Assembly: GCF_013166655.1 (NCBI RefSeq)
Contig: NZ_JABKCA010000006.1
Coordinates: forward strand, 1 to 64,000
Direction of reading: 5' to 3'
Origin: Lentimicrobium sp. L6
GTDB lineage: Bacteria > Bacteroidota > Bacteroidia > Bacteroidales > UBA12170
Length of the DNA: 64,000 nt
The position numbers and the translations under genes are program-made. A model generated the notes under the pieces. That model saw nothing but the letters and a program-made list of their open reading frames with translations. It was not told where the DNA came from and ran no database searches. Each line of letters opens with the position of its first letter. Within the stretch, counting starts at the first letter, position 1. Shown here in pieces: positions 39,748 through 63,364 of the stretch.

Positions 39748-40767
39748 ATGAAGAAAAAAGCATTTATAACTGGAGTTACAGGTCAAGATGGTGCATATTT
39801 AGCCCAATTTCTATTAGAAAAGGGATATGATGTAGCTGGTGGATATAGAAGGCTGAGTAATATTAATTTTTCTCGACTCGATAAATTAAACATTACAAAC
39901 GATATTAAACTAGTTGAGACCGACTTACAAGATACTAGCAATTTAGTAAGAGTTATTCAAGAAGAACAACCAGATGAGGTATATAATTTAGCAGCTCAAA
40001 GTTTTGTTGCGCATTCTTTTAAAAACCCTATTTTAACAGGAAATGTTACTGGAATAGGTGTTACAAATATTTTAGAAGCTATTAGAATTATCAATACTGA
40101 TATAAAATTCTATCAAGCATCAACTTCTGAATTATTTGGGAATGCAAAAGAATCTCCACAAAATGAAAACACTCCATTTTTCCCCCGAAGCCCATATGGA
40201 GTATCAAAACAATATGGCCATTATGCCACTATAAACTACCGAGAATCATATGATATTTTTGCTGTGGCGGGAATATTATTCAATCATGAATCTCCTTTAA
40301 GAGGCTTAGAGTTTGTGACAAGAAAAATCACCAATGCTGTTGCTCGTATTCATTTGGGGAAACAAGACTATTTTGAAATTGGTAACCTTGATGTAAAAAG
40401 AGACTGGGGTTATGCCAAAGAATACGTGGAAGCTATGTGGCTAATGCTGCAAACAGAAAAACCCGAAAATTATGTATTGGCTACAGGAGAAAACCATTCT
40501 GTTAGAGAATGGATAATTAGGTGTTTTGAACTCTTAGGTAGAAAAATAGTTTGGCAAGGAGAAGGTGAAAACGAAGTGGGAAAGGATGCTAACACAGGGA
40601 AAATACTTGTAAAGGTAAACCCTGAATTTTATAGACCTGCTGAAATATACAATCTAGTTGGAGATTATTCTAAGGCAAAAAAAGAATTGGGTTGGGAGCC
40701 TGTAGTCAAGTATCAAAAACTGGTAGAAATAATGTTAAAAGCCGATATCGATAAAGAAAGTAAATAG
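39748..40767 (+). CDS. gmd: GDP-mannose 4,6-dehydratase
   Basis: 339 residues, usual length. Rossmann motif TGVTGQDGAYLAQ at about 8-20 binds NADP. AAQSFVAHSF, STSELFG and the catalytic YGVSK (Tyr-x-x-x-Lys) follow, then NHESPLRG and NLDVKRDWGYAKEYVEAMW, strongly diagnostic of the family. It turns GDP-mannose into GDP-4-keto-6-deoxymannose, the precursor of GDP-fucose, GDP-D-rhamnose, perosamine and others. No fucose synthase or aminotransferase is in the window, so the final sugar is unknown. Positioned before a GT4 gene with a 6-bp gap. Confidence 0.95.
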   Translation: MKKKAFITGVTGQDGAYLAQFLLEKGYDVAGGYRRLSNINFSRLDKLNITNDIKLVETDLQDTSNLVRVIQEEQPDEVYNLAAQSFVAHSFKNPILTGNVTGIGVTNILEAIRIINTDIKFYQASTSELFGNAKESPQNENTPFFPRSPYGVSKQYGHYATINYRESYDIFAVAGILFNHESPLRGLEFVTRKITNAVARIHLGKQDYFEIGNLDVKRDWGYAKEYVEAMWLMLQTEKPENYVLATGENHSVREWIIRCFELLGRKIVWQGEGENEVGKDANTGKILVKVNPEFYRPAEIYNLVGDYSKAKKELGWEPVVKYQKLVEIMLKADIDKESK

Positions 40768-44203: not shown

Positions 44204-45925
44204 TTATTTAATTACCACACTACGTTCTGTTTCTTTAACCTCCAATATATTACCATCATCATTATACAGAACTATGGCAATCTTGTAATCTCCGGGTTTT
44301 AATTGCGACAAAAATTTGAAATAGGAAAAATCAAATCCACATTTTTCACTTACATGAGAATAGGTGTTTCTAAAATGCCCAACAACCCCTTTTCTAAGGA
44401 CAAGATTTGTTTTAAAGTATTTCTGATTTTCATGGCCAATAAAAGCAATTCCTATTTGGGCTTTCTTCACATTGGAATCACTCGAAAATGCCCATCCATC
44501 TATCTGCAAATGCTGCTCTGAATCCTCATATCGATCAAATACCATTACCACATTAGAGCTTGCAGAATCAAAACCAAACAATTCAATCTCCCCTGTTACA
44601 AATTGAAGTTCTTCCATTTTTGGTGGATGATAATATCCATTTTTAATAGCATTACTGATAAGTTCTGATGCAAATTCATTATTTGGAGATTGTAAAATAG
44701 TGTTTGAAGGATCTTTATAGTAACTTATTAAACCATTAACCTGCTTGGTCTTATGTATATCAAGAGCAATCATATGATGTTGTAATCTCAAGAAATAAAA
44801 AGCACTACTTATTCCTAGAAGGAAAATGATTACAAACTTCTTAGGCCTCTTTAAATCACCAATAATAATTAAATATAAAACGATGATAAACATTACCGAA
44901 CGTAATGCATACCTTGGTGCAGTTGCCCCATAAAACCCTCCTCCGGAACGTGAAATTGCAGCTGCCATAGCTGATAATGCTATAAAAAACAAAAATGCAA
45001 AAGCGACAGAATATTTATCCATCACTTTCCATTTCTTCCAAAACATTAGTGCAGAAATTGATATAACTACGGCTCCAATTAATGGTAAAAACCGCAAATG
45101 ATATGGAATAATGGGGATGCTAATTCTAGCGAAAAAAGCCAAGAAATACTGTAGAGTTTGAAACGGGTGATTGAGAAATGCCAATTTTGAACCTGTGCCA
45201 GCAATAAAGTTATAATTGGAAAAATAGAATATCAAAGATAAAATCATGAACAGCGCCCAAATTAATAGCTTTTTATATGATTTATCTTTAGCAAACCCTA
45301 ACACAACAAATCCAGCAAAAAACACAAACATTCCACTTCCGAAAGAAAACGTAGCTAGCATAGCAAAGAAAATAGAACCCATAAAATGTGTAGCCTTTGG
45401 CTTAGACAACAAGTATAAGGATGATATAGCAAATAAATATTGATTTATTCCACTTATGGTTAACATTGACCAATCTGATATTTCGTGTATAGGAATAAAT
45501 AATAAGAATATAATAGGAAGAAATAAGAACAGATCACCATTATACATTTTGTTGATTCTATACAACACATATAATAGTCCAAACATTCCCAGATTCCCTA
45601 TAATAGCCAGCTGCCTGTAGTCTAGTTCTCCGTTAATTAAAAATTGCAAGGCTATGGAGAAGAAATAGGAGAATATTCTATGTTCATTTGCTTGACTAAA
45701 AAGCAATTTAATTTTTTGTAAAAAGCTTTGGTTATCAAATTTCTCAATCCATGCTAAAGAACAATAGTACTCGTCGAAAAATGGTATATTAGTAGTATAA
45801 TGAAACACTAAATAATAGTATACTATAATGGCAATTGAGGATAAAAACAGAGCCATTAGAAAAAAAGCATCTCTCTGTTTATACTTCATCTTCAAACTGG
45901 AGATTAATTGTTTCATCGCTTTCAT
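44204..45925 (-). CDS. Polytopic membrane protein with C-terminal GW module (GT-C-like)
   Basis: 573 residues. About 11-12 hydrophobic segments span residues 20-390. The first external loop has TTNIPFFDEYYCSLAW, with a DE pair like the catalytic loop of GT-C sugar transferases. Residues 472-573 are a beta-rich module (HLQIDGWAFSSDS...KCGFDFSYF...LKPGDYKIAI) also present twice in the adjacent protein. Its start overlaps that gene's stop by 4 nt. Together with the GtrB-like gene it could form a polyprenyl-P-sugar-dependent side-chain transferase. No family name is certain. Confidence 0.75.
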   Translation of the reverse strand: MKAMKQLISSLKMKYKQRDAFFLMALFLSSIAIIVYYYLVFHYTTNIPFFDEYYCSLAWIEKFDNQSFLQKIKLLFSQANEHRIFSYFFSIALQFLINGELDYRQLAIIGNLGMFGLLYVLYRINKMYNGDLFLFLPIIFLLFIPIHEISDWSMLTISGINQYLFAISSLYLLSKPKATHFMGSIFFAMLATFSFGSGMFVFFAGFVVLGFAKDKSYKKLLIWALFMILSLIFYFSNYNFIAGTGSKLAFLNHPFQTLQYFLAFFARISIPIIPYHLRFLPLIGAVVISISALMFWKKWKVMDKYSVAFAFLFFIALSAMAAAISRSGGGFYGATAPRYALRSVMFIIVLYLIIIGDLKRPKKFVIIFLLGISSAFYFLRLQHHMIALDIHKTKQVNGLISYYKDPSNTILQSPNNEFASELISNAIKNGYYHPPKMEELQFVTGEIELFGFDSASSNVVMVFDRYEDSEQHLQIDGWAFSSDSNVKKAQIGIAFIGHENQKYFKTNLVLRKGVVGHFRNTYSHVSEKCGFDFSYFKFLSQLKPGDYKIAIVLYNDDGNILEVKETERSVVIK

Positions 45926-48168
45926 TTCTCTATTTTTATTTTATAATTTGTATCATCCTTGTAATATGTGGTTTCATCTTTAGAAAGAATATACACCGAT
46001 AATTCATACTCCCCCTCCTCCAATTCTTTTGTAGGAATAATAACATTCCATCCACTAAACTCAAACTCCTGATTGGTAAAAGCTTTAGCCACATCTGCCC
46101 GTGGTAGTCCATAATCACTAGGAAAATATTTCTCCCCAATTCTTATGACCATACCCAAAGCTGATGAGTTGTGCAGATCATCCACAGCCCAACCTCGAAT
46201 CTCAATGCTTTCTCCTTTGATTTCAACGGCCTCCTCAAAATTATTAGCTCTGTTTATATTATCAATTACATATCTGGTCTTCATAGGAGATTCAATAAGG
46301 TCGGCTAATAATTCCTTAGAATGCGCCTCAATAAACCTTACAGTGTATTTGTTTTCCGGAACCCAAAAGCTTTTCTTGTCTTTATTCACCACCTTAAAAT
46401 CAATATCATAACAGCCCCTATCAAAGTGTATTGGTATTTTTACCGACCAACCTGACATCATCAAACTATTATCTTCATACCTATCAACAACATCTTTTCT
46501 TGGATTGACAAACTGTATTGGATATTCTTTATCTGCAATACTCACAAATACATTATTCATAGGGTTTTGACCTGTTTCATTTTTCACCCAACCATTTATC
46601 TCCAAAAAGTTTTCTTTGTGATGCGGAAGTATATAATTCCCATTTTGTCCACCAATATTATCTACCACAAACTCTGCTGACTCACCCCCACTAGTCATTT
46701 CTAAATTATTAACACTCACTTGATTTGGCATAACATAAATTTCTTCGCTACCCTCCCCAAAAACAAACTTGTTATCAATCAATAGGGCTAGTTCAATATT
46801 CTGTATACCCCTTTGTAAAAGATTTGTTTTTATTTCAGCTTTCCAAATCAAACCTAAAGAATCGCATTCTTTCACCTTACATGCTTCAAAGTACTGTTCA
46901 TTAATTTTAATAAATACCTTCTTGGGTTTATTTGAAAAATCTTTAACAATTGCTCTGCCAGCTATTTGAAGCAAAGGAATGGAATGAACAAATGGTTTTT
47001 GAACATGAGCATTACCTATTCCATTTAAAGCATCGACACTCCAAAAAACGCTATCTTTCGAGTTTAAATAATCTGATTTCTCATATATAGGTGAAATATA
47101 ATCCTCAACTTCTATTTTATGAAAATATCTTTTCACTTGTGCTTTATGATGCTCAATATGATCGATAATATTTAATTTACTTACTTTCCTCCCAAAATCA
47201 TTCGGTAATTGAGGATGGTACTGATTAAATATCCTAGCAATAACTAAATCACCTACTCCTTGAGTAAAATGTGAAGTTTCAAAGTAATTGAGGTTATTAG
47301 TTGTAATGGAGTTCAAGTCACTGAAATCGTAGAAATCAGTAAGCTCCGACAACATCTCCAATCCTCGATAATATCTTTCCAAATCTAGGTTTAGAATTGT
47401 AGTGGCATGAACTGGATTGATAAAAAATTGGATGTTAATTTCATGTTCTTTTGCAAGATTCACAATGTTTTCAATTTCCTTTATTGTGATATTTAAACGG
47501 CTTGGAAATTTCCTAGCACCCGAAGGTTTTAAAAATCGTGAACTAGAATTATGTGCTAACTTGCCTTTATTGCTAAGGCTTTCGAAAAAACTATTATAAG
47601 TAATTCCATTTTCAAATACTAAAGACCTATCTATTAATGGACTGCCCTTGGTATAAAAAAGGTTAATATAGTTCCAGGATGGCAGATAAAAAATATAGGA
47701 CTGGAAAAATTTGATTTTTTCTATGAAGGTTGAAGGCGGTTTCTTTCTCAATAAATCATTTTCACTAGCTTCAACACCATAGAGTATGCCTTCAAAATCT
47801 AGCGATATCAATAAATTCTCAATCTTAACACCATGCGATATTAAATTACATATATCCTGATAATGAGCTTTTGGAATTCCTGCACTATAGGTCATATTGT
47901 AATATTTGGAATTATTAATTCTTGCTGGGTTCAAAGCATTAACACGTGATGATCCAAAGATAAAAGAATGATACCTATCAGGACTATTTAATACGTGTTT
48001 CATCTTCATGTATCGTTTATTTGGTTCCAATTTCGAATTTCTGTAATTACCAAAAAAGACTCCATAAGGATCAACAATGATATTGAAATATAGAATTGGC
48101 GCCGTGACGATAAAAAGAACGAGTACTACTTTAGCCAAACTGATATAAAAAGTTTTAAAATCAGGCAT
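45922..48168 (-). CDS. SGNH-like partner of the MBOAT acyltransferase with two C-terminal GW modules
   Basis: 748 residues. One N-terminal transmembrane helix (about 10-30). Residues 40-320 resemble the SGNH/AlgX-AlgJ-like partner proteins: FIFGSSRVNALNP carries the GSS block, and YFETSHFTQGVGDLVIARI near 295-315 is a His-containing block-V-like segment. A linking beta region follows, then two copies of the GW module at 521-613 and 654-748 (ending GWAVDD...GLPRADVA...FSGWNVIIP). In related pairs the MBOAT passes an acyl group across the membrane and the SGNH protein places it on polysaccharide. It lies 3 nt after the MBOAT gene. The catalytic assignment is by pattern only. Confidence 0.78.
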   Translation of the reverse strand: MPDFKTFYISLAKVVLVLFIVTAPILYFNIIVDPYGVFFGNYRNSKLEPNKRYMKMKHVLNSPDRYHSFIFGSSRVNALNPARINNSKYYNMTYSAGIPKAHYQDICNLISHGVKIENLLISLDFEGILYGVEASENDLLRKKPPSTFIEKIKFFQSYIFYLPSWNYINLFYTKGSPLIDRSLVFENGITYNSFFESLSNKGKLAHNSSSRFLKPSGARKFPSRLNITIKEIENIVNLAKEHEINIQFFINPVHATTILNLDLERYYRGLEMLSELTDFYDFSDLNSITTNNLNYFETSHFTQGVGDLVIARIFNQYHPQLPNDFGRKVSKLNIIDHIEHHKAQVKRYFHKIEVEDYISPIYEKSDYLNSKDSVFWSVDALNGIGNAHVQKPFVHSIPLLQIAGRAIVKDFSNKPKKVFIKINEQYFEACKVKECDSLGLIWKAEIKTNLLQRGIQNIELALLIDNKFVFGEGSEEIYVMPNQVSVNNLEMTSGGESAEFVVDNIGGQNGNYILPHHKENFLEINGWVKNETGQNPMNNVFVSIADKEYPIQFVNPRKDVVDRYEDNSLMMSGWSVKIPIHFDRGCYDIDFKVVNKDKKSFWVPENKYTVRFIEAHSKELLADLIESPMKTRYVIDNINRANNFEEAVEIKGESIEIRGWAVDDLHNSSALGMVIRIGEKYFPSDYGLPRADVAKAFTNQEFEFSGWNVIIPTKELEEGEYELSVYILSKDETTYYKDDTNYKIKIEK

Positions 48169-49623: not shown

Positions 49624-50673
49624 TTAGTTTTTTGCACTCTTTATAGATATTAATTCCCGCTTCAATTTCTTAATTTCATCAGATTGTAGTTTTAGTTTTT
49701 CCATCAACAAAGGAATTACTAGTTCTAAATTTAAACCTGAATATGGTTCCCAAGCATCTGTTTCCGAGGGTAAAGAATCGTTAAACAATGTGTTGCTATT
49801 ATCTAAAAACAATTCTGCAATTCTATTATTCGACTGGGTATATTTATTGATTATAGCAATGCTTTCTAAAGGAGATAGAAAACCCTTAGTACTTGTATTA
49901 TTTTTTCGCTGTTTTTCGTTTATTATATCATGCATGAGATCGAGGTAGCTATGATCGTGCTGATCTTTAACCAATTCCTTACTAAGTCTCAATAACTCTA
50001 TGGTATCTCTATCGAAGCCAATATTGAAATTCTCATTGGAAAACGGAGGATTCTGAAATTCCGTATCCCTCTTAACACCTAAAACACCTAGAAAATGCTC
50101 AACAACATCTTCTCCAATTGTTGATTTTTCATAGGGAAAAACCTGAAATTCAGAAGGTTCAAATTTATCTAGCCACATATTCAAATTATCTAACCAGTCT
50201 AGGTTAAGGGTTTCATAATAATCTTGAATATTATTGCACTCAGGAAGCTTATGACCCCATTGCTTCCAGGCAGATTCTAAATATTTATCTTGTCGTCTTA
50301 GGTATAATATAATGCTCAGATCAAAACCCAATTTCTCGATTATATCTTTCATTAAACCAGACCACCAGTGCCAAAAGAAACCCTCGTTACTTATCACAAT
50401 CTTTTTTATCCTATTTTTCTGACAATACCTTTTTATGTCGCTAAAAAGCTCAATACACTCTTTATCAGCATGCTTAACAAAGGTATTCATAAAATAGGGT
50501 GCATGATTATGCTGATTTCCATTTGAATAGTCATTAGAGTTAAGATTTGGATACAAAATGGAATGCTTATTAAATAAGTGTTTTCTATTGGTGTTTAAAA
50601 AACTTTGAATGGCACTACTCCCTGTTTTAGGTTGTCCAATATGTAAGTAAATCTTTATCCTCTTTTTAAACAT
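49624..50673 (-). CDS. Sulfotransferase-like protein
   Basis: 349 residues from the ATG at 50673; a TTG two codons upstream is less likely. The phosphosulfate loop is IYLHIGQPKTGSSAIQSFL at residues 8-26. IILYLRRQDKYLESAWKQW near 127 is the 3'-phosphate-binding strand and helix, as in bacterial capsule-type sulfotransferases. The C-terminal third is helical with a terminal coiled coil (MEKLKLQSDEIKKLKREL). It sits between the MBOAT gene and the 1762-residue fusion gene in one operon, so it probably sulfates the glycan of this locus; the site is unknown. Confidence 0.8.
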   Translation of the reverse strand: MFKKRIKIYLHIGQPKTGSSAIQSFLNTNRKHLFNKHSILYPNLNSNDYSNGNQHNHAPYFMNTFVKHADKECIELFSDIKRYCQKNRIKKIVISNEGFFWHWWSGLMKDIIEKLGFDLSIILYLRRQDKYLESAWKQWGHKLPECNNIQDYYETLNLDWLDNLNMWLDKFEPSEFQVFPYEKSTIGEDVVEHFLGVLGVKRDTEFQNPPFSNENFNIGFDRDTIELLRLSKELVKDQHDHSYLDLMHDIINEKQRKNNTSTKGFLSPLESIAIINKYTQSNNRIAELFLDNSNTLFNDSLPSETDAWEPYSGLNLELVIPLLMEKLKLQSDEIKKLKRELISIKSAKN

Positions 50674-50727
50674 GATCAATTTGTTTGATGATTGATTGTT
50701 TTTAAAAAACTAATTATTGTCTGGTTA

Positions 50728-53700
50728 TTATATCCTGTTTTGTAAAATCATCTTGCTATCATATAGCTCTGCAAATTCCTTGTCATTTAAATCTGGCCAT
50801 ATATTTCTAAGATCACAAGTTACACTATTAATCATTAAATCTATAACCTTTGGCGAAAGTTTGTTTTCCTGAACCACCTTTAAATGGATTTTATAATAAT
50901 CGGGAAGTGTATTTTTCGCTAAAATCTTATTTGTAACTACAACTGATGTGGAATGAACACGATGATAGTTGAGGTGAGCAGGATGATAATATATTTCCCC
51001 TGTTTTTAATATGGATAGGTATGAATACCAGTCTCCACCATTTTTAAACTCAGCTGCTTTTTCAAAATCAACAGATTTAATAGCTTGTGCTTCAAAAATA
51101 ACTGCACTAACATTTGGAATGGTATTTCTAATGGCAAGAGCAGATTCTATTTCATTTTTACCCTCCTCATAATATTCTTTTTGCCACCTCTCTTTGGGAA
51201 ACCCAAGGTTACTGTAATGACCAATATTGATATAATGTTCCTTTTCCACTTCGCCAATTTGATCAACTTGATGAGAAGCACTATAAGCCATCCGTACATT
51301 AGGATTGCTAAAAGCTACCAATAGACTCTCAATAAATTCGGGGGTTGCCACATCATCTCCTTCGGCAATCCATATATATTTCCCTTGTGCTTGTTCCACA
51401 CCTTTTCCCCATTGCTTAAAAGGGGAACCAGTATTTACTTCATTAGTAATAATTCGAATACTGGAATTCGTTTCATACTTTCTAATTAATGATAAACTAT
51501 TGTCAGTGGAACAATCATCAAGTATAATTATCTCAAAATCCTTAAATGTTTGATTTAAAATACTCTCAATCCTTTCTACCACAAAATCACCATGATTAAA
51601 AACAGGAACCACAACACTCACCAATGGTTGTGTTTTCATTTCCTTATGGCAAGCCTTCAATATTTGAGGAACAGCAATATCAGTAGTATATGATGAGAAC
51701 ACCTTCTCTCGGGCTTTGGCACCAAGTTTTTGCTTTAGCTTTTCATCAGAAATCAATTTAGAAATAACATCAGCAGCTTTCTCCACATCAAGAAAAGGAA
51801 CGGAAAAACCAGCATCATCGCCAACTAAGGTAGGAATGCCACCAGCTTTTTCAAAACAAACTATTGGCAAGCCACACTCAGCTGCCTCTAAACACACTAA
51901 TGGAAACGGATCCTCTCTAGAAGGTAAGAAAAATAAATCTCCAGCGGCAAAATATTCAGATGGATTATTTCGTGATGGAATAATGTTAATCAGCTTTTCT
52001 AACTTATACTTCTTGATATACTCTTCCCACTCGGTCCAGTCTCCCCAGTCTGCATGCTCAATATTCCAATAATTATCACCAATCCAATTAAACTCAAAAT
52101 TCTCAACCCCTCTCTTTTTTAATTCATGAGCTACTTTAATAAAAACATCGGTGCCTTTCCTCCAGTTAATAGTTCCACAAGCCCAAATAATGGTTTTATG
52201 TTCTGGCAAAGCAAGCATTTCCCTTCGGTCCAACTTGTTTGGTTCTACTATATAATGAGGCTTAATAAATTCATGTATGCATAAAATATCCGTAGGTTTT
52301 ATATTATGATTTTCTTGAAGGTTTATTTCTACAGGTTCTGAACAAGCAATATGTAAATTAGTTTTGTTTTTCCAGACTTCACGTGTTTTGTCGAGTGTGT
52401 ACTTTTGTATTGATTTTTCGAGCTCGTGTATATGAGTGATAAATGGAGCATTAAAAGCTGAAAGGAAAGAATATATCTGAGTAGAAACTATGGTGTTTCC
52501 ATATATTAAATCAACCGTTCCTACCTTATTCTCGAGCTGATGTATGGCCTCCTCTCCATATTCGTTTTCTAATTGATCCCACATATAAAGGTCAGCTACA
52601 CTTTCAATAGCAAACTTTAACTTTCCACCATCATCTCCAAGTTTTAAGGCCACAACACTCATTTTAATACTGGTATTATGATACAACCAATTTAAAATAT
52701 TCAATAAAATCTGTTGAGCTCCAGCTTGAAACAAATCGTGAGTTATGAATAAAATGCTTGGGCCTGTGGGAAGTTTTTTACGATGTTCAGATTGGTCAAT
52801 TCTCATTTTATCGCTAAAATAAGATTTCTGAATACTGAATGAACTATCTTTCACAAACTGTGGCCAAAGTCTTTCTAAATAATGTGCCAAGGTGTAGTCC
52901 AACTGATTTTTCTCCTCTTCAAAATCTTCCATCTGAATATTTAACTGGAGTAGTTCCTTAAAGGATTGGGGGCGAAACCAAAACATTGATCCTGTTGGAA
53001 ATTCAAAATTGAAATCACTTCTAGTTGATCGAATTTTAGGTAATTTACTGTGGGATTGGTAAAACTTCGCAGATGCATCATCATTAATCCAATCATTATC
53101 TTTATAAACAACTGATAGATAAGGGTATTCAATTGGCCAAACGACACCAAGTTTTTTATCACTTTTAAATGAATGTAAAATTTTCTTAATGGGAGCTTTT
53201 CCGCCAATCAATTGCTCTAGAAGGTATTTTCGCCACCCCTCTAAATGTAAGTTGTGTGGACTTTTCTTAGAGTGTATTTTACATACCAAATCATAGTTTT
53301 GTAAATGACTTTTATAATAACTCACAAAAGGAAATATATCTCGCCCTTTATTGGAGAATGATTTAACTAATACCTGGCTTCCTTTAAATTTTGAACTAAA
53401 CAATACATTCACTTTTTCAATATAATTTGCTCTTGTACTAATAAAAATATCAAAAGAAATGGGTATATTTTTAAGATACTCTATTATTTCATCGGCCAAA
53501 TCAAAATAGTATAAATGACATACTATTGCAACTTTCTGTTCTGTCCAAGAATCATCATCTATTTCTACATTGTTAATATCTGCAAGGCTCAAACTATGAT
53601 TTTCATCTACCTTTATCGCTTTGGGTAAGCGATTCTCATTAATACCATATTTCAAATAATGTAATAATGGATTTATTCCGAAACTTACTACATCAGGATT

Positions 53701-56016
53701 TGTTTCTAAATAAAACTGATTATCAAAGTCTTTGCTTGGGTTTCTTTTTTCCTTATATCCCCAATATAAATAGTGTTCATGTGGCTCAATGCCTGCTTCT
53801 TTTACATCTTTATTCTTATGAATATAATATTCGGCATTGAATAAATCACTTTCTTTTATAAGCTTCAGTGTATCATTATCAGACATCTCTGTGATTACAT
53901 TTGGAGTATCTGTTTGTCGTTCTAATATTCTTTGGTATTCTGTGTTGGTCAGCTCATTTCCCTCAACATCAATATTCACACATTTTCGAGTTTCTTTTTT
54001 GCCAAACAATAAATAATGATACAAGGGATTTATTCCAGCCTCCTTAACATCAGGATTTTGCTCTAAATAGAGTTTACTATTAAATATTTCAGAGGGATTT
54101 CTTCCCTCTATGCCTCCATGAAAAAGAAAATGTTTGATTGGGGAAACTCCAGACACCTCCACATCCTCATTATTTGAAAGATAATAATTTGCATCGAAAA
54201 GCTCAGTGTTTTTGAGCAGTTTATCAAAACGATATTTAAGAATAATATTTGTTATAGCCTCAAATATTGGCAACCTAAATACCTTTGTTATTCTCCACGA
54301 TATAGAGTTTTTAATCATTTTGGCATTTATTTCTAAGTTTAATTTTTCACTGTGAAGGTTTTGAACCTGACTCTCTTTATCTTGAATTACTCGCTCCAAC
54401 TCAACTACACTTTCCTCTGTACTGTTTATTATGGCACGATTATCCTGATTCTTACTTTCTAATATTTCTATTTGCTTTAAATATTTATTGATTGAGAGGT
54501 TCAACTTTTCATTTTTCTTCTTAAACCTGATATTATCATCCTTAAGCAGTTGCGAACCATAGTTCAAGAATTCAAAGTACATTTCTGGAGATATCTTGTT
54601 TTTCCATTTATTCTTTAGAGAAATATCCATCTCATGAATTTTTTTCGCATTACTCCTTACTCCAGATGAATTGGTATCAATATATTTTCCTGTAAGTTTA
54701 TTCATATGAATAATAGAACCCAACATTGATACTTGTATTATAAAATTCCAATCCTCATATAATTCAAAATCCTCATCAAACTCACATTCTTTGAGAACAG
54801 AATTGCTAAACATTATTGCGTTTAATGGAATATAATTCCCCCATAAAAGCTTTATAAAATCGAAGTCATCATTGTAAACATTTAAGACATCATGATTAGC
54901 ATCTACTCTTTCTATATTAGAATATGCAGCAACAGAATTGCTTCCTTGTAAAACATTAATTAAAGCCCCACAATGAAAGCTATACAACAGATCATCTTCA
55001 TCAAGGAAACAGAAATAGGTGCCGTTTACATGTTTTAAACCAACATTTGCAGCTTGTGGCCTCGATAATGGTCTGTTCTCAGAAATTACTCTCAATGGAA
55101 AATTCCCACAAGAATCCCCTAAAACAATTGAATTCTTCCCCAATGCATCTATCACTAGAACTTCAATATTTGAATAGCTTTGTTCACTTATAGACTTTAA
55201 GGCTTGAGCTAAATCTCTCCTGTTCATTGTTCGAACAACAATAGAAATCAATGGATTATTATCATTTGGTAGATTTGAATCAATATTAATTGGACCCTTT
55301 TTTTGGTTTGTTTTTTGCCAAACTTCACTTCCAGAAAACAAATCTGTTGATGGCAAATAAAAATAAGCTTCGGCATATTTTATATTTTTCCCCAAAGTAT
55401 AAGTTCTATAGGCATGAAGTGCATTTATATGATATTTATAATCCTGAGCTTCAAGTTGACTTTTGAAACAGTCCATGGCTTGGTTTAATTGAGCATAAAA
55501 ACCTGATATATCGAGAAGTCTATTGGCTTTCTGCATTTGCCCAATTTCATAAAAATACAACTCTATTTGATGAGAACACCTTTTTACTGATTCAACAAGA
55601 ACCTGAAAAACAGAAATATGGTCAGGGTGTATTTCTGAAGAAGAAGGGAGATATATTATAGCTGGATGATGAGTTTCTAGTAATTGTAAAATATGTAAAA
55701 TACTACTTTCATTAAAAAGGAATCCTCTATCTGGATAATCTAGAAAGATAGGCTCTCCATATCCTAAAACACACGCTGCATTTATAGATTCTTGCTGCCT
55801 AATGGATTTATACAGACTTGACTTCTGACTCTCAATCACCGGTGAAGCACCATCGGTAATAATAATCACTTCTACCTGATCTCCTTGGGCCAAATGTTTT
55901 AGAATAGCACCTCCACAGCCGAATACTTCATCATCGGGATGTGGAGCAAATACCAGAACATTTCCTTTTTGCCAATCATTAGTTGTTTTATAAGGAATAA
56001 AGTCTTGCTCTTCCAT
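50728..56016 (-). CDS. Giant fusion: PIG-L deacetylase, GT2, coiled coil, NPDV repeats, RgpF-like, GT4, GT2
   Basis: 1762 residues in one uninterrupted frame. 1-225: PIG-L/LmbE deacetylase, with the Zn motif HPDDE at 26-30 and HPDH at 130-133. 255-470: GT2 domain (SIVVRTMNRRD, FLDEDDLL). 495-565: coiled coil. 571-586: SWRITKVFRLPIF tail motif. 606-800: four repeats of about 40 residues in two pairs (YYLSNNEDV..HFLFHGG, YLEQNPDV..HYLLFGK, YYIHKNKDV..HYLYWGY, YLETNPDV..HYLKYGI). 826-1075: RgpF-like domain (SNKGRDIFPF, CKIHSKKSP). 1087-1455: GT4 (GTINWRKGTDVFI, PSREDPFPLVCLEAAECGLP). 1464-1720: second GT2 (VPVFNHGDF, AEGDDVAT). It probably builds several linkages and N-deacetylates a sugar. No signal peptide, so cytoplasmic. 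Confidence 0.88.
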   Translation of the reverse strand: MEEQDFIPYKTTNDWQKGNVLVFAPHPDDEVFGCGGAILKHLAQGDQVEVIIITDGASPVIESQKSSLYKSIRQQESINAACVLGYGEPIFLDYPDRGFLFNESSILHILQLLETHHPAIIYLPSSSEIHPDHISVFQVLVESVKRCSHQIELYFYEIGQMQKANRLLDISGFYAQLNQAMDCFKSQLEAQDYKYHINALHAYRTYTLGKNIKYAEAYFYLPSTDLFSGSEVWQKTNQKKGPINIDSNLPNDNNPLISIVVRTMNRRDLAQALKSISEQSYSNIEVLVIDALGKNSIVLGDSCGNFPLRVISENRPLSRPQAANVGLKHVNGTYFCFLDEDDLLYSFHCGALINVLQGSNSVAAYSNIERVDANHDVLNVYNDDFDFIKLLWGNYIPLNAIMFSNSVLKECEFDEDFELYEDWNFIIQVSMLGSIIHMNKLTGKYIDTNSSGVRSNAKKIHEMDISLKNKWKNKISPEMYFEFLNYGSQLLKDDNIRFKKKNEKLNLSINKYLKQIEILESKNQDNRAIINSTEESVVELERVIQDKESQVQNLHSEKLNLEINAKMIKNSISWRITKVFRLPIFEAITNIILKYRFDKLLKNTELFDANYYLSNNEDVEVSGVSPIKHFLFHGGIEGRNPSEIFNSKLYLEQNPDVKEAGINPLYHYLLFGKKETRKCVNIDVEGNELTNTEYQRILERQTDTPNVITEMSDNDTLKLIKESDLFNAEYYIHKNKDVKEAGIEPHEHYLYWGYKEKRNPSKDFDNQFYLETNPDVVSFGINPLLHYLKYGINENRLPKAIKVDENHSLSLADINNVEIDDDSWTEQKVAIVCHLYYFDLADEIIEYLKNIPISFDIFISTRANYIEKVNVLFSSKFKGSQVLVKSFSNKGRDIFPFVSYYKSHLQNYDLVCKIHSKKSPHNLHLEGWRKYLLEQLIGGKAPIKKILHSFKSDKKLGVVWPIEYPYLSVVYKDNDWINDDASAKFYQSHSKLPKIRSTRSDFNFEFPTGSMFWFRPQSFKELLQLNIQMEDFEEEKNQLDYTLAHYLERLWPQFVKDSSFSIQKSYFSDKMRIDQSEHRKKLPTGPSILFITHDLFQAGAQQILLNILNWLYHNTSIKMSVVALKLGDDGGKLKFAIESVADLYMWDQLENEYGEEAIHQLENKVGTVDLIYGNTIVSTQIYSFLSAFNAPFITHIHELEKSIQKYTLDKTREVWKNKTNLHIACSEPVEINLQENHNIKPTDILCIHEFIKPHYIVEPNKLDRREMLALPEHKTIIWACGTINWRKGTDVFIKVAHELKKRGVENFEFNWIGDNYWNIEHADWGDWTEWEEYIKKYKLEKLINIIPSRNNPSEYFAAGDLFFLPSREDPFPLVCLEAAECGLPIVCFEKAGGIPTLVGDDAGFSVPFLDVEKAADVISKLISDEKLKQKLGAKAREKVFSSYTTDIAVPQILKACHKEMKTQPLVSVVVPVFNHGDFVVERIESILNQTFKDFEIIILDDCSTDNSLSLIRKYETNSSIRIITNEVNTGSPFKQWGKGVEQAQGKYIWIAEGDDVATPEFIESLLVAFSNPNVRMAYSASHQVDQIGEVEKEHYINIGHYSNLGFPKERWQKEYYEEGKNEIESALAIRNTIPNVSAVIFEAQAIKSVDFEKAAEFKNGGDWYSYLSILKTGEIYYHPAHLNYHRVHSTSVVVTNKILAKNTLPDYYKIHLKVVQENKLSPKVIDLMINSVTCDLRNIWPDLNDKEFAELYDSKMILQNRI

Positions 56017-56047: not shown

Positions 56048-56896
56048 CTAAAGAAAACGTATACCGCACAATTCTTCGAGAAGTTCTTGATCCTTATGAT
56101 ACCTTTTAATTAGAGTATTATAAGTATCTTCTTGAATTTCGGGAATTTCAAATTTATTAAACCCCATTATTTGCTGAGAAATACTCTTGGAATATTTTTG
56201 GGTTTTGTACATTGCTTTCTGAAGATTCACATATTTAATTGCATAGCCCTGATTAATGATTTTTCCACTTTGGCTTGGTATAATATCGACTTTTAAGAAA
56301 TTAAAAATTTTATTCATTACTCCTTGAAAGTCCATTTGTAATTCATTCATTGTTATAATATGAAATTGGCTTTTCTCAAAAAGACTAAAATATCTATTTA
56401 ATTGTTCACCAAATAAGCCTGATCGAAAATAAAAATAATTATAAGGATATTGTTTGTTTTCTTTCCGAAACTTTACGGAATGATATCTTTCCTCTTCTAG
56501 GTGAATTGCTTTTTCGAAAGTCTTAGTTTCCTCCAAACCAACCCTTCTCATAAAATGAAATAAGGAATGTGCCCTTTCAACTGGGTTCCTCAAAATCAAC
56601 AGGAATTTAGCTTTAGGGAAAAGGGCATGTATAATCCTAGGAGATTCTGGATCGGTAAAATAGGCATGCGAAGCTTCTCCAATTATAGTTTCTTTTTCAA
56701 CTTGATCAAACAGTTTGAAATATTCAACAGTATTTTTTATCAATTGAAAATCCTCGCAAAAAAAAGTTGGTTCTTTTTCTTTGCTTAAAAATATTTGTGG
56801 ATGTTGCATCAAATAATAATACAAAGTAGATGTTCCTGATTTTGCAGCCCCAAGTATAAAAAAGTTTGGCTTGTTTAGTTTGGTTTGTTTCTCCAT
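56048..56896 (-). CDS. Carbohydrate sulfotransferase (NDST-like)
   Basis: 282 residues. 5'-phosphosulfate loop FFILGAAKSGTSTLYYYL at about 12-29. EASHAYF follows, and the 3'-phosphate site FLLILRNPVERAHSLFHFM near 98-116 has the Arg and Ser of the RxPxERAxS pattern. These are the canonical motifs of heparan-sulfate-type and bacterial glycan sulfotransferases, and the length is typical. Uses PAPS to sulfate a sugar hydroxyl or amine. It sits 31 nt upstream of the giant fusion; the fusion's deacetylase could free an amine, and a sulfotransferase next to it raises the possibility of N-sulfation. That is inference. Confidence 0.9.
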   Translation of the reverse strand: MEKQTKLNKPNFFILGAAKSGTSTLYYYLMQHPQIFLSKEKEPTFFCEDFQLIKNTVEYFKLFDQVEKETIIGEASHAYFTDPESPRIIHALFPKAKFLLILRNPVERAHSLFHFMRRVGLEETKTFEKAIHLEEERYHSVKFRKENKQYPYNYFYFRSGLFGEQLNRYFSLFEKSQFHIITMNELQMDFQGVMNKIFNFLKVDIIPSQSGKIINQGYAIKYVNLQKAMYKTQKYSKSISQQIMGFNKFEIPEIQEDTYNTLIKRYHKDQELLEELCGIRFL

Positions 56897-57774: not shown

Positions 57775-58785
57775 TTAAAAAAGATCCCCATCTGCCATTG
57801 TAAAAAACATGTTTTTTGATGCATGGTCTAATGGAATTTCTTTATGGAAAGTTCTACCAACAATAGTTAGACCTAATGGCTCCTTTTTGGCAATAAAACC
57901 GATTTGTATGAGTTTTTGGGTTACTCCATGATTTGGAGGTAACCAAGATTGAATTTGTGTTACTCCTCTCTTCTTTAATTCTTTAGTTATTTCAGAAACT
58001 AAACAGGCAATATCATCAACTCTAGGTTTAACCAAAATATCTACCAATGTTGCAATTTTATTATTGATCTGAATGATACCATAGGCCTTCGGTTGATGCA
58101 AAATATTTCTTGATACAAAAACAAGATATTTTTTGGTTGGATGATCAAAATACCTCCATTTGATAAAATCAGCATTTCGGCTAATAGAAAAAGGATAGTA
58201 CCAATTTAGTGAATTCCAAATACGATTGAATATAGTTGTATCAAATGAATGGACTAATCTAGTTTTTTTAAAATACCCACTTCTATTTTTTACTTGTTCT
58301 ATATCGGCAGAAACAAATTGAACACCTTGAGAAATCTCATTGTATTGTAAAAACAATTTCCCCAACCGATAAGCCCTAATCCCTGGATAGCCATAATAAA
58401 AAACAGACTCTGGAGGAACGGCAAAAACATCAAAAAAATGCTCCGCTGTTTGTATAAATAATCCTTTGCGCCCTTGAGTTGTACTTCTATAGGCAGGGTG
58501 AGACATACTATCAGTCATATGCACCATTCGTATAGCTTGTCCTTTATAAAATGATTTATACGGAAGCCCTCCATACATAACAACTGGCTCCTCCTTTTCA
58601 TTTAAACAAAGCATAATCTGATATCCAAAAGGATTTTTATGATATTTCCATCGCCATACTTTCTGATCCATTTCATGGTTAAAAGCAAGCTCCCAAAGTT
58701 CCATTACTTTTTCTTGGTCATCAGAAGTATATGGCCTCAATTTAAACTTTCCCTGATCTGTTTTTAGAATTTTTTCCATCTCCAT
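57775..58785 (-). CDS. GNAT-like acyltransferase
   Basis: 336 residues; ATGs at 58785 and 58779 both overlap the end of the upstream GT2 gene. The N-terminus KFKLRPYTSDDQEKVMELWELAF is a GNAT strand-helix start, and MTDSMSHPAYRSTTQGRKGLF resembles the acyl-CoA pyrophosphate loop (Q/RxxGxG/A variant). FIKWRYFDHPTKKYLVF begins a second GNAT-like half, so the fold may be a tandem GNAT of the kind seen in FemAB-like proteins. It probably N-acylates an amino sugar; no direct evidence for the substrate. Overlap with neighbours shows operon membership. Confidence 0.75.
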   Translation of the reverse strand: MEMEKILKTDQGKFKLRPYTSDDQEKVMELWELAFNHEMDQKVWRWKYHKNPFGYQIMLCLNEKEEPVVMYGGLPYKSFYKGQAIRMVHMTDSMSHPAYRSTTQGRKGLFIQTAEHFFDVFAVPPESVFYYGYPGIRAYRLGKLFLQYNEISQGVQFVSADIEQVKNRSGYFKKTRLVHSFDTTIFNRIWNSLNWYYPFSISRNADFIKWRYFDHPTKKYLVFVSRNILHQPKAYGIIQINNKIATLVDILVKPRVDDIACLVSEITKELKKRGVTQIQSWLPPNHGVTQKLIQIGFIAKKEPLGLTIVGRTFHKEIPLDHASKNMFFTMADGDLF

Positions 58786-61989: not shown

Positions 61990-62619
61990 ATGAAATGTAA
62001 CACTTATCATGAAGTTTATTCAGAATACCAAGAAATTGCCTCACAAACGCTAGAGGGTAAATCCGATTTAGAAATCCTTAGAACAGATTGTTATAATGAA
62101 TCAGGAATCTCTTCCATTCCAAAAACTATAGTCCCATTTATTTTGCCACATTGTTCATTGCTTCAAATATTTGAGATAGATCCCAATGTTATAAAAGAAG
62201 CTAAGAAGAAAGATTACATGAATAATAAAAAGGTTTTCATTAAAGAGCAAAACATTATTACTTTTAATGAAAATGAGAGGAAATATGATGTTATTTTCGA
62301 TTTTAGCACCATAGATCATATGGAATTTGAGGAGGCTATTATTGTTTTGAAGAAATACAAGTATGCGCTTAAAGAAAAGGGAATCTTATCATTAGTAGTT
62401 TGGTTGAACGAGTTTGAACATAAACACATGCCTATTGATAAGCAATACTATTTCAAGAGGGATCTGTTTGACAAGGCCATTAAGAAAAATTTTCATATTA
62501 GCAAACAAGAACATTTGTTTAGCGACCACAATTCGGAACTATGGTATTATAAACTTAGTCTCAAGAAAATGACTCTTTGGAAAAAACTTCTATTGTTTCT
62601 AAAACTAATGAAAACTTAA
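61990..62619 (+). CDS. Degenerate methyltransferase-like protein
   Basis: 209 residues. The fold looks like a class I methyltransferase: IFEIDPNVIKEAK is a motif II-like strand, KYDVIFDFSTIDHMEFEEAI the post-I strand, and LKEKGILSLVVWL follows. The glycine-rich SAM loop is not present; its place is taken by LEILRTDCYNESGISSIP, so it may use a variant site or have lost SAM binding. It is a lone plus-strand gene between two minus-strand units, with its own promoter motif, and converges on the ABC ATPase with 7 bp between stops. Confidence 0.7.
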   Translation: MKCNTYHEVYSEYQEIASQTLEGKSDLEILRTDCYNESGISSIPKTIVPFILPHCSLLQIFEIDPNVIKEAKKKDYMNNKKVFIKEQNIITFNENERKYDVIFDFSTIDHMEFEEAIIVLKKYKYALKEKGILSLVVWLNEFEHKHMPIDKQYYFKRDLFDKAIKKNFHISKQEHLFSDHNSELWYYKLSLKKMTLWKKLLLFLKLMKT

Positions 62620-62626
62620 ACAAAAA

Positions 62627-63364
62627 CTACTGAATTTCATGATATTTTTGAATCACCTCCTCAGGTTTCCCTACCATTATAGGTTTTCCTCCTGATAATA
62701 ATAAAACACGATCACAATATGCTTGAATGGTATTTAAATCGTGACTCACATGAATAATGGTTTTCCCTTTAATGATTGACTCTTTAAATGAATTCTCAGA
62801 TTTAGTTTTAAAGCTTTCATCCCCAACCCCTCCAAACTCATCAAGAAATAGGATATCGGCATCTACATTAATGGCAATTGCAAAAGCCAAACGACTCACC
62901 ATTCCCGAAGAAAAGTATTTTACTTTAGTATCTACAAAACTCTCAAGTTCGGCATATTCTATAATTTGATTAAAGATACTGCCTATTTTTTTAAAAGTTA
63001 ATCCAAACAAGGAACCATTCAGATAAATATTCTCTCTTACTGTTAACTCCAAATCGAATCCTGTACCAAGCGCTAATCGTTGGAAACTTCCTTGAATATC
63101 AATCACTCCTCCTTTATCAGGCTGATAAACAGAAGTCATTACTTTCAGCAATGTAGATTTCCCACTTCCATTGTGTCCAATGACTCCAAAAAACTCTCCC
63201 TTCCGAATTTCTAGGTTTATATTTTCCAAAGCCTTGATAACACGGTTCTGATTGGGATTAAATATACCTGTTACTTTAGACCGAATAGAATTTGTATTTC
63301 TGTCTTTTATTTTAAAAGTCTTGCCAATATCCTTTAGCTTTATTATTGTTTCACTTGATTTCAT
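62627..63364 (-). CDS. Polysaccharide ABC exporter ATP-binding subunit (KpsT/Wzt/TagH-type)
   Basis: 245 residues from the ATG at 63364, one base after the permease stop; an earlier start at 63379 is inside the permease. Walker A GVIGHNGSGKSTLLKV at about 72, signature YFSSGMVSRLAFAIA, Walker B DILFLDEFGGVGDESF and switch HVSHDL are all intact. The stretch NLEIRKGEFFGVIG is typical of the O-antigen/teichoic/capsule exporter subgroup. It ends soon after the nucleotide-binding domain, so no C-terminal sugar-binding domain as in long Wzt. It powers export of a lipid-linked glycan with the permease upstream. Confidence 0.93.
   Translation of the reverse strand: MKSSETIIKLKDIGKTFKIKDRNTNSIRSKVTGIFNPNQNRVIKALENINLEIRKGEFFGVIGHNGSGKSTLLKVMTSVYQPDKGGVIDIQGSFQRLALGTGFDLELTVRENIYLNGSLFGLTFKKIGSIFNQIIEYAELESFVDTKVKYFSSGMVSRLAFAIAINVDADILFLDEFGGVGDESFKTKSENSFKESIIKGKTIIHVSHDLNTIQAYCDRVLLLSGGKPIMVGKPEEVIQKYHEIQ

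Follow-up and report, generated by a model that had tools for sequence, protein, structure and literature searches.

We found that the minus strand of the window (the whole stretch of 64,000 nucleotides of Lentimicrobium sp. L6 analysed here) carries, at 50728..56016, an intact and real glycan-assembly gene, whose 1762-residue product is probably a multi-module enzyme that assembles, in the cytoplasm, a capsule- or O-antigen-like surface polysaccharide for export through an ABC transporter. The order of its modules is PIG-L, GT2, a likely coiled coil, an SWRIT segment, two pairs of repeats, the C-terminal half of RgpF, GT4 and a second GT2. Pfam matches above the curated cut-offs back every named catalytic part, that is PIG-L, both GT2 stretches, RgpF and GT4, and no transmembrane segment was found in the protein by hydropathy. 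An earlier note made from the sequence had described an uninterrupted frame with a glycan-assembly role. The frame is indeed a single one without stop, on a strand that the note did not give, and the role is supported by the modules, their motifs and an ABC-exporter cluster. Its count of seven parts does not stand, as its own list comprised eight items.

Modules of the 1762-residue protein

The N-terminal head, on the minus strand like all the modules described below, consists of a PIG-L/LmbE-type de-N-acetylase domain (55282..56016, residues 1-245) and a GT2 module (54577..55254, residues 255-480). In the former, the HPDDE (26-30) and HPDH (130-133) motifs are intact, the corresponding columns are invariant in an alignment of three fused PIG-L-GT2 homologues, and Pfam PF02585 matches residues 21-141 with an E-value of 4.8e-25 (89 bits vs a curated cut-off of 28.2). 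Its relatives in the PDB are BshB1 6p2t and 2ixd, and the solved relatives include named deacetylases of GlcNAc glycosides, BshB1 and diacetylchitobiose deacetylase. The GT2 module contains FLDEDD at 337 and ED at 421 and was confirmed via alignment to a Methyloprofundus homologue, where the Pfam GT2 match reaches 7.6e-23. In the window protein, PF00535 (Glycos_transf_2) gives 1.1e-36 for the whole chain in two GT2 stretches, the best being 1467-1604. Pfam, motifs and homologue alignment thus bear out the PIG-L and GT2 calls made previously.

The head is followed by an 85-residue run without Pro or Gly, charged and polar and rich in E, K, Q and N (54301..54555, residues 488-572), where a coiled coil is likely, although not proven. 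By the length of this run alone, the stretch does not exceed shuffles of this Pro/Gly-poor protein. Directly past it lies SWRITKVFR (54274..54300, residues 573-581), which has counterparts in other chains: SWKITSPIR in the Methyloprofundus protein (L072), also past a charged helix, and SWRMTKPVR/IR in L079-L081, described below. A strongly amphipathic membrane helix at SWRIT is not supported, as its hydrophobic moment lies at the 74th-93rd percentile among windows taken from the protein itself.

Two pairs of NPDV/HYL repeats come next, at 53971..54198 (residues 607-682) and 53614..53841 (residues 726-801), separated by a linker of 43 residues. The four units announced earlier are there, but they measure 38 residues instead of 40 and are paired, and exact NPDV occurs in two of the four, the literal motifs being, in order, NEDV, NPDV, NKDV and NPDV with HFL, HYL, HYL and HYL. 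The repeats are helical in an AlphaFold2 model (pLDDT about 81-90), and they matched no Pfam model and, in a profile search, no PDB sequence relative; an open-access literature search gave no paper on NPDV repeats. They also occur in Enterobacterales plasmids, at capsule loci, and, without the GT modules tested, in two or more proteins of genome G462 (L077:5589-6554 and L077:8389-15219); glycosyltransferases are therefore not the only proteins that bear the repeat.

The following segment (52843..53571, residues 816-1058) is the C-terminal module of RgpF and not a full-length RgpF protein: it matches PF05045 with 7.2e-44 (150.7 bits vs a cut-off of 25), covers positions 259-501 of the 503-position model and holds the conserved motifs NKGRDI, HSKK, GSMFW and AHYLER. 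The RgpF-like part of the former description is thus confirmed, though for the C-terminal half alone. An AlphaFold2 model covering the repeats and RgpF (mean pLDDT 72.8) predicts short helices followed by an alpha/beta domain, whose best solved matches in Foldseek are GT-A enzymes (E 2.5e-4 to 1e-3, with low whole-chain TM-scores), among them hyaluronan synthase, PcManGT and chondroitin polymerase. PDB sequence profiles gave no relative of this module. Because the fold model matches GT-A enzymes, RgpF is probably a fourth glycosyltransferase module.

The chain ends with a GT4 module (51649..52764, residues 1085-1456; REDPFPLVCLEA at 1367), matched by PF00534 (Glycos_transf_1) over residues 1265-1437 with 3.7e-26, and with the second GT2 (50731..51648, residues 1457-1762; AEGDD at 1551). 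Pfam matches and acidic motifs are present for both the GT2 and the GT4 assignments, and the SWRIT, GT4 and second GT2 calls hold, by the motif at 573 and by Pfam.

Gene cluster and relatives

The gene belongs to a minus-strand run from 64160 to 43232 that encodes an ABC permease (63366-64160, starting past the window edge), a TagH/Wzt-like exporter ATPase (62627..63364, with no space for a Wzt C-terminal domain), two methyltransferases, a GT2, a GNAT (57775-58785, a weak match of 4e-7), a TylF-type O-methyltransferase, a Sulfotransfer_1 protein, the large protein itself, a second sulfotransferase-like protein, an MBOAT, a GT2-like protein recognised by eye and two large proteins without Pfam family. 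A methyltransferase-like gene at 61990-62619 is on the plus strand, and a GDP-mannose 4,6-dehydratase is encoded at 39748. From this content we infer that the cluster makes a heavily decorated, ABC-exported polysaccharide. The two large proteins at 44204-45925 and 45922-48168 (minus strand), with no Pfam match above cut-off, have similar C-terminal segments round a GW motif which, by eye, look like a small beta-domain.

Two other chains start with the same head, and their PIG-L-GT2 units align over the full length with that of the window protein, at 41% and 33% identity. One is BCG66087.1 (L072), annotated as hypothetical, a protein of 1327 residues with PIG-L, GT2, coil, SWKIT, WbsX and RgpF encoded in the Methyloprofundus plasmid pINp10. 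This plasmid, from a mussel-gill methanotroph, carries a complete polysaccharide export and assembly set. The other, of 1341 residues, comes from a genome (G276) of the same phylum as the window but of a different class, and comprises PIG-L, GT2, a short coil, two repeats, GT2 and GT4. The C-terminal modules therefore differ among the fused PIG-L-GT2 chains. Parts of the remaining order are found elsewhere, as repeats-RgpF-GT4 in one chain of Rhizobium (L049) and as repeats-GT4-GT2 in Phaeobacter (L156), which matches the window GT4 with 1e-37 and the second GT2 with 3e-43. The survey of order recurrence that the earlier note called for was thus positive for overlapping sub-orders, but it yielded no second copy of the full eight-item order and no recognisable sulfotransferase near the other PIG-L-GT2 chains.

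The fused PIG-L-GT2 chain is scarce: two of 396 genomes drawn from the phylum have it and, among 395 of the class, that of the window alone. None of ten genomes of genus relatives has the chain, nor was a PIG-L-GT2 chain found in viral contigs. Whole-protein searches of 60 relatives returned mainly generic GT2 matches, and a peptide-pattern search of genome contigs generic GT2 only. Of 247 genomes of the order, six gave an RgpF match, four of them above the cut-off. The gene likely originated by transfer between lineages. An open-access literature search gave no paper on PIG-L fused to a glycosyltransferase with RgpF.

The RgpF C-terminal module has varied partners, being joined to an FkbM methyltransferase (L076), WsaF (L048), GT61 (L104), GT2 (L050), WbsX (L072, L148, L152, L153 and L157) or GT4 on either side (L049, L075), and RgpF relatives repeatedly lie beside ABC capsule exporters. 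Within the phylum of the window, L079 (genome G638) comprises a methyltransferase, a charged helix, SWRMT and RgpF, and corresponds to the window protein with its head exchanged; L080 and L081 (genomes G483 and G537) are close relatives of this chain. Very large glycosyltransferase chains are not rare in the phylum, as seen in open frames of 3066, 2479 and 2628 residues with several GT2 modules each (G316:C47, G601:C69 and G641:C2; L090, L091 and L093).

Proposed mechanism and alternatives

In the explanation that we consider best, the catalytic roles of the modules are predicted. The C-terminal RgpF, GT4 and GT2 modules would extend the chain, one linkage each, while the N-terminal GT2 would add an N-acetylated amino sugar from which PIG-L, in the same head, would strip the acetyl group in cis and leave a free amine. 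The likely coiled coil, the SWRIT segment and the helical repeats would act as a spacer between the head and the modules that extend the chain. The freed amine has three conceivable fates, to persist as such, to be acylated by the GNAT or to receive a sulfate, and the head may act on each repeat unit or just cap the finished chain. PIG-L could also process a small precursor and not the chain.

A narrower form of this explanation, which we regard as tentative, is that the PIG-L-GT2 head terminates the chain by placing a single de-N-acetylated amino sugar at its non-reducing end, and that the coil measures chain length, in the manner of WbbB and WbdD. Capping is a serious option because relatives from the phylum (L079) with a methyltransferase head in the matching position resemble polymerase-terminator enzymes. 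The position of the head and the methyltransferase heads of L079-L081, with their head-SWxMT-RgpF layout, favour it, and the Methyloprofundus version has a longer Pro/Gly-free helix of 128 residues and a Wzt bearing the C-terminal domain. In the window protein and its cluster, a head, GT modules and an exporter are present as in WbbB/WbdD-type enzymes, and the coil is likely, with a length not beyond shuffles. However, a cap is disfavoured by the short coil (about 85 residues, and about 48 in the G276 protein) and by the lack of a Wzt C-terminal domain in the exporter ATPase, and the heads of WbbB and WbdD are not deacetylases.

Rather unlikely, in our opinion, is that the GNAT of the cluster re-acylates the freed amine to give an unusual N-acyl amino sugar. 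The enzyme is encoded in the same gene run, a GNAT is found in the Methyloprofundus cluster too, and a core-LPS locus of Pseudomonas (PA5001-PA5003) contains a GT-PIG-L-GNAT trio, whose PIG-L and GNAT members are without known function (PMC8005017). Nevertheless, the match to GNAT is weak, and the freed amine is a putative substrate.

The remaining fate of the amine concerns the sulfotransferases. The upstream neighbour (56048..56896, minus strand) encodes a Sulfotransfer_1 protein of 282 residues (Pfam 4.1e-16) with the PAPS loop AAKSGTST and R103-x7-S, so that the adjoining sulfotransferase mentioned earlier is real. The label "NDST-like" given to it is unjustified, because the generic bacterial sulfotransferase 3RNL is far closer (2.5e-27) and NDST1 (4.7e-10) and the 3-O-sulfotransferase 3-OST-1 (4.7e-9) are about equally distant, N- and O-sulfotransferases being thus resembled alike. 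Another sulfotransferase-like gene, absent from the earlier note, follows immediately downstream of the large one (49624..50679, minus strand, likely ATG at 50673), with HIGQPKTGSSAIQ and R128-x7-S136. Its product has no Pfam match even at E 5, and a single-sequence AlphaFold2 model has a pLDDT of 38, unusable for fold comparison. In its family, the HIGxxKTGSS-type PAPS loop and R-x7-S are conserved in Rhodobacterales homologues, and the 5'-PSB P-loop [KR]T[GA][ST][ST] and the 3'-PB R-x7-S occur in nine of nine aligned members. In Qingshengfaniella, a domain of this type is fused to GT2 in a 1261-residue chain.

The association with RgpF was assessed at seven plasmid loci chosen on their repeat-RgpF match alone (H8, H10, H22, H28, H30, H31 and H33). 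A member of the downstream family lies within 12 kb of repeat-RgpF in five of them, all from Rhodobacterales, and is the adjacent gene in four. The family had no match at the other two, from Shinella and Azospirillum, nor at L048-L053, and its profile had none among 685 ORFs of 129 other loci. RgpF assembly proteins are thus repeatedly accompanied by sulfotransferase-like genes, whether PIG-L is present or not. As these genes flank PIG-L-free repeat-RgpF genes, sulfation needs no deacetylation, and this recurrence supports sulfation while weakening a sequence of deacetylation and N-sulfation. The genome also encodes an APS kinase; therefore, PAPS can be made, and it is plausible, judging from these genes, that the polysaccharide product is sulfated.

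N-deacetylation followed by N-sulfation, as in heparan sulfate, had been put forward. In such a heparan-like route, PIG-L would de-N-acetylate a hexosamine of the growing chain and the adjoining sulfotransferase would N-sulfate the amine, as in the two-domain NDST. The sulfation part is backed by the APS kinase and the two sulfotransferase-type neighbours; the analogy with NDST is improbable, since the deacetylase domain of the latter is Agd3-like (PMC10864358), placed with CE18 (PMC13353177), and not PIG-L. No Agd3-like deacetylase fused to an N-sulfotransferase was found here, but PIG-L and a separate generic gene. In the 5.1-Mb genome, PIG-L and Sulfotransfer_1 domains occur once each, in adjacent genes with 31 bases between them, PAPS can be made and the sulfotransferase has its distant likeness to NDST1. 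Nonetheless, 3-O-sulfotransferases are equally similar, the two other PIG-L-GT2 chains have no recognisable sulfotransferase nearby (the G276 contig being short), repeat-RgpF genes free of PIG-L are flanked by sulfotransferases as well and the GNAT could take the amine instead, which makes this route quite improbable. That head and neighbour make an N-sulfated amino sugar in a bacterial surface polysaccharide, by a route that evolved separately from NDST of animals and couples deacetylation to growth of the chain on one polypeptide, seems more doubtful still.

Finally, an assembly artefact, by which separate genes were merged through misassembly or a lost stop, is highly improbable: the genome is a draft of 195 contigs and the whole module order has no second copy, but every junction recurs within a single chain of an unrelated genome, and G+C and third-position G+C are alike among the modules.

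Comparison with known assembly enzymes

Our preferred reading, a multi-module assembly enzyme, can be compared with several known systems. NDST shares the N-deacetylation chemistry and a related sulfotransferase nearby, but its deacetylase family is unrelated, it has no glycosyltransferases and the sulfotransferase is here a separate gene. WbbB from Klebsiella pneumoniae O12 (a terminating GT, a coil and two polymerase GTs) has a head GT, a coil (in the window protein a likely one) and C-terminal GTs in one chain, as here; it differs in having no deacetylase and a head GT that is not GT2 but a beta-Kdo transferase. Bacterial N-deacetylating and N-sulfating enzymes are sought for the production of heparin-like glycans (PMC13353177); the window protein would be a speculative member of this group. 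It is named here as a candidate for coupled transfer and N-deacetylation, and its locus points to a nameless sulfotransferase-like family linked to RgpF loci.

The enzymes for ABC-exported O-antigens are often chains in which a coiled coil separates GTs that polymerise from a head that modifies or terminates (PMC11231755; WsaE, PMC2943079). In K. pneumoniae O7, ORF6 joins a methyltransferase-kinase, a coiled coil and two GT2 for ABC-transporter-dependent O-antigen assembly (PMC11231755). The window protein also combines a predicted modifying head, a likely coiled coil and GT modules in an ABC-exporter cluster, but its head is PIG-L plus GT2, likened to that of ORF6 by layout and not by homology, and it adds RgpF, GT4 and the NPDV/HYL repeats. 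The methyltransferase-SWRMT-RgpF chain of L079 parallels the ORF6 layout (PMC11231755). WsaE from Geobacillus stearothermophilus, a methyltransferase with two rhamnosyltransferases (PMC2943079), similarly couples modification with several transfers in one chain, with an ABC exporter, but has no PIG-L, repeats, RgpF or GT4. BCG66087.1 shares PIG-L, GT2, the likely coil, SWxIT and RgpF in one chain at an ABC exporter locus, with WbsX in place of the repeats and without GT4 or the second GT2. Multi-module polysaccharide assembly enzymes are put together, across phyla, from a few interchangeable modules, and a deacetylase can hold the position that methyltransferases or terminating GTs have in the known ones.
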